From positions 434,001 through 498,000 of the forward strand of contig JAKQNP010000002.1 of NCBI GenBank assembly GCA_029565675.1: DNA of 64,000 nt, in the 5' to 3' direction. The DNA is from a bacterium. Lineage in GTDB: Bacteria > Zhuqueibacterota > Zhuqueibacteria > Residuimicrobiales > Oceaniaggregativiventaceae. A program made the position numbers and the translations under genes. Positions 5,815 through 9,142 of this stretch are shown piece by piece (the stretch's first letter is position 1; every line of letters begins with the position of its first letter). The notes below the pieces were generated by a model that made no database searches, was not told the DNA's origin, and saw nothing but the letters and a program-made list of their open reading frames with translations.

Positions 5815-6813
5815 TTAGGTGCTGAAAATGCGGAAAGAGCCATCGGTAAAGCAGAGCCGGCAGGTCGGATGCAGATCTTGCGGCTGCAGACCGAGCAAAC
5901 GCAGCGGATTGTCGAAAGCCAGTTTGACCAGGTCGGCCGGGGAGACGAGGTCGAGGGAAGCCAGGTAATTGACCGCCTGCAGCAAGGTCGTGCCGGTGCC
6001 GGCCAGACACTTGTGCTTCGGATTGACGATGCGGCCGGTTGGTTCGAGAACCACCTGTTGGCCGGCAAAGCGATAGTTGCCGGCCGGCAATCCGGCGATG
6101 GGCGCCAAATCGCTGACCACAATTGTGCGCGAGACACCTTTGACCGCCAGGATCGTCTTGAGCAGCGCCGGCGGCAGATGAAATCCGTCGGCGATAATCG
6201 TGGCGGAGACCGCGTCGTTGGCCAATCCCGGCCACAGCGGATTGTGGTGGCGCGGTATCAGATTGGGCAGACCGTTGCCCAGGTGGGTGATGGCCGTGGC
6301 GCCGCAGGCGACCAGAGTGTCCAGACTCTGTTCGTCAAAAGCCGAATGGCCGATAGAAACGGCGATATTCAGGTCACGGGCGCAGTGCGCCAATTCTGCA
6401 GAACCCGGCAACTCAGCGGCCATGGTGAGAAGGCGGATGGTGCCGCCGGAAATTTCCCACAATTCCTGCAACAATCGCACATCCGGCAAAAGCACATGTT
6501 GTGGGTCGTGGCTGCCGATGTATCCCTTGCGCGGCGACAAAAACGGCCCCTCGAGGTGGATGCCGAGAATCCTGCCGCGGAGAGCCGGGCTTTCGAGCGC
6601 CCGACCGATCAGGGCCAGATTGCGGCGATAGACCGGCAAGGGGCTGGTGATGAGAGTGGCGAGAAAGGCGGCGGTGCCTGCCCGGTTCAGGCTGTCGGCG
6701 ACCGTGTCGAGATCGCCGGCGCCCAGGTTTTCCGCGGAGAAATCGATTCCGCCAAAACCGTTGACCTGCAGATCGACAAATCCCGGAATGGTTTTCAGTT
6801 TTTCAGTTTTCAT
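5815..6813 (-). CDS. nagA: N-acetylglucosamine-6-phosphate deacetylase, short N-terminus
   Basis: Removes acetate from GlcNAc-6-phosphate, giving glucosamine-6-phosphate for NagB. Visible family motifs: PGFVDLQVNGFGG (the Q/N version of the metal site, as in E. coli NagA), IHLEGPFLSPRKGYIG, the His of GHSAFDEQ, the His of ITHLGNGLP, and catalytic Asp in VVSDLAPIAGLPAGNY. The start chosen is the ATG that overlaps the nagB stop as ATGA; an in-frame ATG lies two codons upstream. This gives 332 residues, and the PGFVD strand begins at residue 10, so the roughly 45-residue N-terminal beta segment usual in NagA (about 380 residues) is missing. Translationally coupled to nagB. Confidence 0.9.
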   Translation of the reverse strand: MKTEKLKTIPGFVDLQVNGFGGIDFSAENLGAGDLDTVADSLNRAGTAAFLATLITSPLPVYRRNLALIGRALESPALRGRILGIHLEGPFLSPRKGYIGSHDPQHVLLPDVRLLQELWEISGGTIRLLTMAAELPGSAELAHCARDLNIAVSIGHSAFDEQSLDTLVACGATAITHLGNGLPNLIPRHHNPLWPGLANDAVSATIIADGFHLPPALLKTILAVKGVSRTIVVSDLAPIAGLPAGNYRFAGQQVVLEPTGRIVNPKHKCLAGTGTTLLQAVNYLASLDLVSPADLVKLAFDNPLRLLGLQPQDLHPTCRLCFTDGSFRIFST

Positions 6814-7553
6814 GGGCATCTTTTCAACAAAGAAGCGGCCGGCCGGTCGATGAAGAGACGGCAGTCGCCGTGTTTTTGCAGAATCGATGCCGGCACCATG
6901 GGCGTGATCGGTCCTTCGACCGTGGCCTGCAGGGCTGGGGCTTTGCGCTCGTCGGGCACGGTGCACACCAGCGTCTGGCAGCGCATGATCCAGGGGATGC
7001 TCATCGAAATGGCGCGGCTCGGCACACTGTTCAGAGATTTGAACCAGCCTTCACCGACCTGCTGCCGCCGACAGGCGTCGTCGAGATCAACGATGATGAA
7101 CGGCTCTTTGCAGTCGAAATCGGCCGGCGGATCGTTGAACGCCAGGTGGCCGTTTTCGCCGATCCCGATGCAGGCGAGATCGATGGGCGCGGCCTGCAGC
7201 AGGGCGGCCAGCCGGCGGCATTCGGCGGCGGCATCAGCGGCTTCGCCGTCGATGGCGTGAAAATCGGCCAGGCCGGCGACGCGATCGACAAAACGGTCGC
7301 GCAGGTAGCGGCGAAAGCTGGCCGGATGGGTTGCCGGCAAACTGATATATTCGTCGAGATGAAAAACCGTTGTTTTCGACCAGTCGATCGGTTCTTTCAC
7401 CAGAGCCTCGAGCATTTCGAACTGGCTGACGCCGGTGGCCAGCACGATGCGCGCCAGACCTTGATTGTCGATCTTTTGGCGAATTATGGATGAGGCATTT
7501 TGGGCTGCAGCGATGCCCATTTCGGTTTTGCTGTCAAAGACGCGAATTTTCAT
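6810..7553 (-). CDS. nagB: Glucosamine-6-phosphate deaminase
   Basis: 247 residues, the normal size for short NagB proteins. It converts glucosamine-6-phosphate to fructose-6-phosphate and ammonia. Family motifs: LATGVSQFEMLEAL (phosphate loop), TVFHLDEYISL with the catalytic Asp, GIGENGHLAFNDPP with the catalytic His, and SIPWIMRC near the C-terminus. It is first in a two-gene operon with nagA, whose start overlaps its stop. The pair makes a GlcNAc-6-P to Fru-6-P route; no transporter or kinase is adjacent. Confidence 0.93.
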   Translation of the reverse strand: MKIRVFDSKTEMGIAAAQNASSIIRQKIDNQGLARIVLATGVSQFEMLEALVKEPIDWSKTTVFHLDEYISLPATHPASFRRYLRDRFVDRVAGLADFHAIDGEAADAAAECRRLAALLQAAPIDLACIGIGENGHLAFNDPPADFDCKEPFIIVDLDDACRRQQVGEGWFKSLNSVPSRAISMSIPWIMRCQTLVCTVPDERKAPALQATVEGPITPMVPASILQKHGDCRLFIDRPAASLLKRCP

Positions 7554-7670
7554 GCTGATGTGATCCCTCTATTGTTCCCTTGGAAAAAAATAACTCTTAC
7601 CCACTGCTGTCCTGGTTGAGCCCAGCCCCATTTAATCTTTTCGGAAATCATTGGACAGTTATAGCTGAAC

Positions 7671-7977
7671 TTATCTCAGCAGCAGCACGCGTGTGTTCAT
7701 CTGGTTGTGGGCGGAGATCAGATGGATCCAGTAAATTCCGCTTGTAACCGGTTGTCCCAGTTGATCGGTTACATCCCAGACGGTGCGGTTTTCTCCAGCG
7801 CCGCGCAGACAACGCCTGTTCCACGGAAATCGAACCGTCTGTCCGCGGTGCAGGAAGAGCAACTGACATCGCTTCTCCTTTCGACAACGTGTCCTGAAGT
7901 GCGGGCTGAAGAGCGAAAGAGATATCGCCTGCCAGAAACAAGGAGGCGACAAGGTGCAAAGCGACAACTGAAACCAT
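7671..7977 (-). pseudogene. Collapsed secreted protein: leader plus sorting-domain tail
   Basis: An ATG at 7977 opens a hydrophobic leader (MVSVVALHLVASLFLAG) and about 45 further residues. The other minus-strand frame then reads VWDVTDQLGQPVTSGIYWIH and ends MNTRVLLLR at 7671. That tail is the end of a FlgD-like/T9SS C-terminal sorting domain, like the three intact copies in this window. The two halves are in different frames with no body between them, so this is an internally deleted, frameshifted remnant. Confidence 0.6.
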
Positions 7978-8045
7978 TGCTGTTTCCTCTTCAGTTTTAA
8001 TTGGTTGGGCGGATTGGACAACGACGATGTCGGCTTGCAATCGAT

Positions 8046-8082
8046 AAACAAAAGGGGGGTAAAAAAAGATTACCCCCCTTGA
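8046..8082 (-). terminator. Terminator of the peroxiredoxin gene
   Basis: Stem of AAGGGGGGTAA (8052-8062) with TTACCCCCCTT (8070-8080) and a 7-base loop, followed on the minus strand by TTTTGTTT. It lies just after the stop at 8108. Confidence 0.8.
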
Positions 8083-8107
8083 CGACATGGAAAAGCTGCT
8101 GATGATT

Positions 8108-8818
8108 CTAGTGGTCCTTGAACGGATCCCACACTTTCCAGACATTGCCGACCAGATCGGGACCCGGTTTCAGAACTTTCTTGCCGGGTTCCCAGCCGGC
8201 GGGACAGACCTCGGCGCCTTTTTTCGAGCGCACATGCTGGTAAGCCTGAATCTGACGGATGGACTCGCTGAATTTTCGGCCGACCGGGGGCGTCAACACT
8301 TCCATGGCTTGAATAACGCCGTCAGGATCGATGATGAATCGGCCGCGGAGTTCGACTCCGGCGTTTTCATCATAGACGCCGAACAGCTTGCCGACATTGC
8401 CGGCGCCGTCGGAGGCCATATGGAAAGGGATGTCTTTTTTGACCATCTTGGACAATTCATTGTCGTTCCAAACTTTGTGCACGAACTGGCTGTCCACGCT
8501 GACCGAAATCACTTCAACACCGAGTTTTTGCAAAGTATCGTATTGTGCAGCGACCGCTGACACTTCAGTCGCTCAGACAAAGGTGAAATCGCCCGGATAG
8601 AAACAGAGCAAGACCCACTTGCCCGCGAAATCGGAAAGCTTGACTCGGGTAAAGCCGCCGCGATAATAAGCCGGCGCATCGAAATCAGGGGCTTTGGTGC
8701 CCACTCTTGCCACTGACATCTTGATCTCCTTTGCTTGGGGTTCTGTGGTCTTTTTCTCAGGCGTTTCTGGTGCCGTCGCGCCAGTCGGACGCGCGCATCC
8801 GGCATTTTCATCTGCCAT
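8108..8818 (-). CDS. Selenocysteine-containing 2-Cys-type peroxiredoxin (AhpC/TSA), UGA at 8573-8575 read as Sec
   Basis: Reduces hydrogen peroxide and organic hydroperoxides through a peroxidatic residue. Two minus-strand frames separated only by one TGA make a full peroxiredoxin: upstream [15 protein letters not shown] and [10 protein letters not shown], then UGA, then [20 protein letters not shown]. In AhpC-like proteins the residue after FTFV is the peroxidatic Cys, so UGA falls exactly on the catalytic position (residue 82, or 49 from the internal start). The resolving Cys is present ([13 protein letters not shown], residue 205). A SECIS-like hairpin follows the UGA. Two starts are possible: ATG 8818 after AGGAGGGG, or ATG 8719 ([13 protein letters not shown]) after AAAGGAG; the latter matches normal AhpC length (about 203 residues). 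An ordinary stop would leave an inactive 81-residue stub. Confidence 0.9.
8545..8575 (-). promoter_or_regulatory. Bacterial SECIS element with its UGA codon
   Basis: Starting 10 bases after the UGA, the mRNA folds as GUG, one unpaired U, CAGC, loop GGUC, GCUG, CAC. This is the arrangement of the E. coli fdhF SECIS recognised by SelB: a lower 3-bp helix, a bulged U, a short upper helix and a GGUC apical loop. The loop lies 18-21 bases after the UGA here and 19-22 in fdhF. Compared by hand from memory of fdhF. Confidence 0.85.
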
Positions 8819-9142
8819 AATTCCCCTCCTGTACTTGATTAACGCAGATCGTATCTATACAATTACTGATATTTGTTGATTAAAGATACAAACTATTCGT
8901 ATACAAAACAATCAAAAAAGCGCACTCCCAAACTCCTGCGTTTCCTGTTTTGCCAGACAAAGTGCCGAATTTATCGCGCACAATCCGAAGGAAATTTTCT
9001 GCATGCAGGAAACCGCGCGGAGTGAGGGGGCGTTTTGCCGACTCGCCGCATCCCCCGCTGAAGGGTATCGAGTCGTGTTGTGCGACGCGGAAAAACCCGC
9101 AACAATCCGATTGTCATGTTAACCGGCGATGAGGAAATGCCT
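8819..9142. other. Intergenic: AT-rich promoter zone and a GC-rich block
   Basis: 8840-8930 is AT-rich and lies upstream of the peroxiredoxin gene, so it probably holds its promoter; I see no certain -35/-10 pair or regulator box. 8978-9105 is GC-rich with short inverted repeats (GGGGG at about 9027 against CCCCC at about 9053) and encodes nothing recognisable. Confidence 0.5.

Follow-up and report, generated by a model that had tools for sequence, protein, structure and literature searches.

Selenocysteine-containing peroxiredoxins and the locus described here

Peroxiredoxins of the AhpC/Prx1 kind share a chemistry in which a peroxidatic residue reduces the peroxide, the oxidised form is resolved by a second thiol, and reduction by thioredoxin follows. 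PrxU of Eubacterium acidaminophilum is a characterised selenoprotein (Sohling et al. 2001, cited in PMC13188914). In a protein search of plasmid records, this archetypal prxU turned up on an 809-kb plasmid of Peptoclostridium (Eubacterium) acidaminophilum DSM 3953, where it too has a UGA, at the codon that corresponds to the one discussed below.

The window analysed here, a stretch of 64,000 nucleotides from a bacterium of the Zhuqueibacterota (positions 434,001 to 498,000 of contig JAKQNP010000002.1, assembly GCA_029565675.1), carries a gene of this kind on its minus strand. Its product matches P. acidaminophilum PrxU (WP_084481301.1) at 64% identity over 239 aligned positions, the N-terminal tail included, and by this comparison the gene is an orthologue of the characterised one. 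PrxU is already a known and fairly widespread family, of which the window gene is a further member. Earlier inspection of the window, made from its letters alone (the sequence-only reading), had proposed a selenoprotein on the strength of one in-frame UGA; the full-length match to the archetype and the covarying hairpin described below both back that proposal independently.

The prxU gene and its in-frame UGA codon

The gene runs on the minus strand from an ATG at 8818 to a TAG at 8110-8108. A ribosome-binding site region, AGGAGGGG (8819-8835, minus strand), precedes the ATG, and a strong intrinsic terminator with an 11-bp stem and a T run (8052-8080, minus strand; z = -4.5) lies immediately 3' of the gene, which suggests that the transcript ends there. 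Under translation table 11 the gene falls into two separate ORFs (8818-8573 and 8563-8108), the split that had been foreseen for automated calling; when TGA is taken as Sec, one continuous protein of 236 amino acids results. The plus-strand TCA at 8573-8575, a TGA on the minus strand, is the sole in-frame UGA of prxU. It encodes residue 82 and stands at the peroxidatic position of the PxxxTxxU motif (P75-T79-U82), so that the UGA does sit, as had been claimed, at the catalytic Cys site of an AhpC/TSA protein. Because standard gene calling splits prxU, a catalytically important peroxidase can drop out of KSB1/Calditrichota-type annotation.

The continuous protein has the Pfam domains AhpC-TSA and 1-cysPrx_C. 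Its AF2 model has a mean pLDDT of 83, with residues 1-32 below 50, and aligns with AhpC/Prx2 structures at TM scores (by target length) of about 0.85-0.92. We consider it highly probable that the gene is prxU, that its UGA is decoded as Sec by SelB and Sec-tRNA(UCA) at a SECIS hairpin, and that the product is a peroxidase of the AhpC/Prx1 fold. In the proposed mechanism, SelB with Sec-tRNA(UCA) would decode the UGA at 8575-8573, positioned by the hairpin, and the resulting AhpC/Prx1-fold peroxidase may assemble into rings.

Several features of gene neighbourhoods are recorded here in their own right. Directly 3' of prxU, overlapping ORFs on the minus strand (7648-8145) have the look of remnants, with a T9SS-sorting-like tail (GQPVTSGIYWIHL) in one frame and a SVEQALSARR-like start in another; no Pfam match was found for these ORFs. 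Also near prxU, at 5815-7553 on the minus strand, are overlapping nagA-like and nagB-like genes; the amidohydrolase match is weak, and the glucosamine-6-phosphate isomerase family is clear. Elsewhere, prxU stands near genes for Mrp/NBP35-type ATP-binding or DUF59 proteins at two loci, on the P. acidaminophilum plasmid and on a Chloroflexota plasmid (L163, L164), and a link with iron-sulfur cluster proteins is possible from these neighbours.

Conservation of the UGA codon

Codon 82 is TGA in 108 of the 110 homologous loci read, and the two TGC loci are ordinary, more distant peroxiredoxins; among the PrxU orthologues first read, the count is 108/108. A survey of the phylum found a match above the PrxU cut-off in 29 of 82 genomes, with the in-frame TGA among the matches listed. 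One of them (genome G066, contig C270, locus L160) is a true Cys form above the cut-off: it reads TGT at this codon, lacks the tail, and carries Phe at position 72 together with Cys at 205. It may represent a return from Sec to Cys within the Sec group, but its branch is long. A TGC or TGT on reassembly had been named as a result that would overturn the selenoprotein; orthologues from many independent assemblies carry TGA at codon 82.

The orthologue records span Calditrichota/KSB1, Fidelibacterota, Cloacimonadota, Caldisericota, Chloroflexota, Acidobacteriota, Pseudomonadota, Planctomycetota, Actinomycetota and Zixiibacteriota, the phyla being taken from record names, some of which MAG binning may misplace. 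The description of Sec peroxiredoxins as uncommon was overstated.

A covarying SECIS hairpin

Just 3' of the UGA, on the minus strand at 8545-8563, lies a bacterial SECIS hairpin, GUG(U)CAGC-GGUC-GCUGCAC, which occupies bases 12-30 (counting the T of TGA as 0) and starts 9 nt past the UGA. Its stem has one unpaired U, as does that of E. coli fdhF. The loop, GGUC, contains the expected G and lies 17 nt from the UGA, within the published UGA-to-loop spacing of 16-37 nt for bacterial SECIS elements (PMC10778597).

The most telling pair is 17-26, formed by the third bases of the Ser87 and Ala90 codons, which can vary synonymously. It is Watson-Crick in 109 of 111 distinct sequences (GC 49, AT 43, CG 12, TA 5), with GU-type pairs in the other 2; when codons were dealt at random, 40.7 +/- 4.7 sequences had Watson-Crick pairs here, with a maximum of 57 in 2000 trials. 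Among the 103 sequences of the first set, no other base pair in the region reaches its mutual information of 1.46 bits, the next being another stem pair, 14-29 (0.69 bits), and on the protein tree it has switched between Watson-Crick types at least 15 times. For pair 20-23, which closes the GU loop, the Watson-Crick count is 111/111 (GC 93, AT 17, TA 1). These double synonymous changes make the prxU alignment an unusually clean natural set for SECIS covariation. Only comparative analysis reveals the hairpin; single-sequence folding of 69 nt does not (z = -0.3).

Selenocysteine machinery of the host

A genome of the same genus also carries prxU. The window belongs to a draft MAG of KSB1/Calditrichota type, 4.43 Mb in 64 contigs and 95% complete, in which selA, selB, two selD genes and a tRNA-Sec with anticodon TCA were all found; absence of this machinery had been put forward as grounds for refutation. 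The selD genes lie at L019, 546-1472 (contig C9) and at L018 (contig C56). In one of them a TGA interrupts the frame within CAGU, a feature of the known selenoprotein SelD, and the other is a Cys form, GCACK. The contig with the Sec-form selD is short and may be misplaced by binning.

Across the genome itself and its relatives, a strong PrxU match was obtained in 28 of 60 genomes, and selA in 26 of those 28; the two PrxU-bearing relatives without selA are 73% and 56% complete. SelA also occurs in most relatives that lack PrxU, so the co-occurrence of PrxU and selA is required and not diagnostic. The alpha subunit of formate dehydrogenase (TIGR01591), usually the commonest selenoprotein of bacteria, was not found in the draft window genome, though the Sec trait is complete there. 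PrxU and SelD may therefore be among the main Sec clients of this genome, as far as a draft allows that reading.

Alternative readings of the UGA

The two ORFs of standard gene calling would fit a real stop that divides the gene in two, through pseudogene formation, nonsense mutation or an error in sequencing. However, TGA recurs at this codon in 108 orthologues, drawn from many assemblies and phyla, the protein is conserved on either side of it (64-85% identity), a SECIS covaries downstream, and the Sec machinery is complete. With TGA conserved in the 108/108 orthologues and in the phylum-survey matches listed, neither chance nor a pseudogene nor a sequencing error can account for it, and the covariation downstream refutes a real stop as well; we leave a genuine stop scarcely any probability. 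Less credible still is a genome-wide reassignment that would make UGA an ordinary sense codon, for Trp or Gly for example. The single open frame that appears once UGA is recoded is as this idea expects, but homologues outside the Sec group carry Cys rather than Trp or Gly, the genome has a dedicated tRNA-Sec, and a scan of the window, judged by eye, gave no other convincing UGA-interrupted gene.

A subtler alternative accepts the Sec and makes its insertion switchable, with Sec read-through and termination governed by two alternative folds. A competing hairpin (about 8573-8549) is the minimum-energy fold of 31 nt (-11.6 kcal/mol, against -7.4 for the SECIS, both for the isolated window sequence), and the two hairpins are mutually exclusive. 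Against it, those positions of the competing hairpin that can vary synonymously pair in no more than 65 and 80 of the 111 sequences, among which no compensatory change was found, and its constant pairs are dictated by fixed amino acids. Given the lack of covariation at the variable positions, we take the competing hairpin for a by-product of coding constraints, and regulated recoding is very improbable, if less so than the two preceding ideas. Decoding as Sec at the SECIS hairpin is the reading carried forward below.

Resolution of the oxidised selenocysteine

In the window protein, Sec82 would attack H2O2 or alkyl peroxides and become a selenenic acid. Cys205 is the most likely residue to resolve it, in the manner of typical 2-Cys peroxiredoxins, and thioredoxin would then reduce the selenenylsulfide. 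Cys205 (codon at 8204-8206, minus strand) is the canonical C-terminal resolving Cys, in VCPAGW. The window protein and almost all members of its clade have a C-terminal resolving Cys in a VCP motif, the mark of the typical 2-Cys class, but most PrxU lack it. Position 205 is Thr in 58, Cys in 35, Met in 8 and a gap in 2 of 103 PrxU, and Ala in the archetype; Thr, Met or Ala stands there in about two thirds of PrxU, and the tree requires a minimum of 8 switches to or from Cys. The earlier remark that the resolving Cys is intact holds for this protein and does not extend to PrxU in general.

Two other cysteines are far more constant. Cys8 (codon at 8795-8797, minus strand), in the GCARPTG motif of the N-terminal tail, predicted to be disordered, is Cys in 98/98 of the first-set PrxU with the tail aligned. 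Cys72 (codon at 8603-8605, minus strand), ten residues ahead of Sec82, is Cys in 103/103 of the first set; the Cys-type peroxiredoxins examined have Phe or Val at this position, never Cys. On conservation, Cys8 and Cys72 are candidate redox partners for the Sec.

One could accordingly propose that PrxU as a class can work without the canonical resolving Cys, and that the tail Cys8, possibly with Cys72, is the redox partner of the Sec. Sec82 would then be resolved mainly by Cys8, or with assistance from Cys72, in the window protein as across PrxU, Cys205 being an extra that was retained or regained. The near invariance of Cys8 and Cys72 beside a position 205 that has changed so often speaks for this, as does the tail Cys (VLGxCG) of signal-peptide-bearing Sec homologues that lack Cys205. 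Weighing on the other side are the presence of Cys205 here and in nearly all of the clade, and two Sec homologues, the first copies at L158 and L178, which have neither a tail Cys nor Cys205 (one count does give the former a tail Cys, but only because it includes a Cys that precedes the start codon). The core-strand position of Cys72 in the model would also make its direct attack on Se doubtful. The Sec forms, moreover, are largely one clade, with several deep branches long and unsure, and the Cys pattern may therefore reflect common descent in part. Both the class-wide proposal and its application to this protein are ones we entertain tentatively, as the less probable course beside resolution by Cys205. 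If true, resolution by the tail Cys would explain how Cys205 could be lost or regained repeatedly across PrxU without loss of the Sec.

A strict mutual replacement of the tail Cys and Cys205 was also considered and is weakened by the same two homologues; since both lack either Cys, and the first copy at L178 has Leu at position 72 as well, no strict rule for a resolving Cys emerges. The conservation pattern nonetheless poses a testable question: how is the Sec of PrxU resolved where most members lack the canonical resolving Cys?

Probable exported forms and paired genes among relatives

Within the same phylum, the second copy at L158 and the loci L165 and L166 encode Sec peroxiredoxins that have the VLGxCG tail Cys and are predicted to carry signal peptides. 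They are like the window protein in the site of the Sec, in Cys72, in having a tail Cys and in a SECIS-like hairpin with a GU loop; they differ in identity (about 48%), in predicted export, in Ala at position 205 and in scoring below the PrxU cut-off. The three are probably an exported subfamily of Sec peroxiredoxins. At both L178 and L158 two Sec peroxiredoxin genes adjoin, and in each pair the N terminus resembles a signal peptide in one copy only.

Comparison with known systems

Family models place the window protein in PrxU: with NCBIfam NF040737 (peroxi_PrxU, a thioredoxin-dependent peroxiredoxin; cut-off 270) it reaches 399.5 bits, covering positions 2-231 of 233, with no difference that affects membership, and it scores 198.7 bits against the AhpC equivalog TIGR03137, below that model's cut-off of 272. 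With AhpC and the typical 2-Cys Prx1 proteins (for example PDB 1n8j, 1we0, human Prx2) it shares the predicted fold, the PxxxTxxU/C active site and the C-terminal resolving Cys; it differs from them in the Sec that takes the place of the peroxidatic Cys, in a tail of about 33 residues bearing Cys8, and in Cys72, where the Cys-type homologues examined have Phe or Val. Among the nearest described systems is PrxU of P. acidaminophilum, which agrees with the window protein in the position of the Sec codon, the GCARP tail Cys, the equivalent of Cys72 and a GU-type SECIS at the matching place, and differs in having Ala (EVAPSGW) where the window protein has Cys205 (EVCPAGW).
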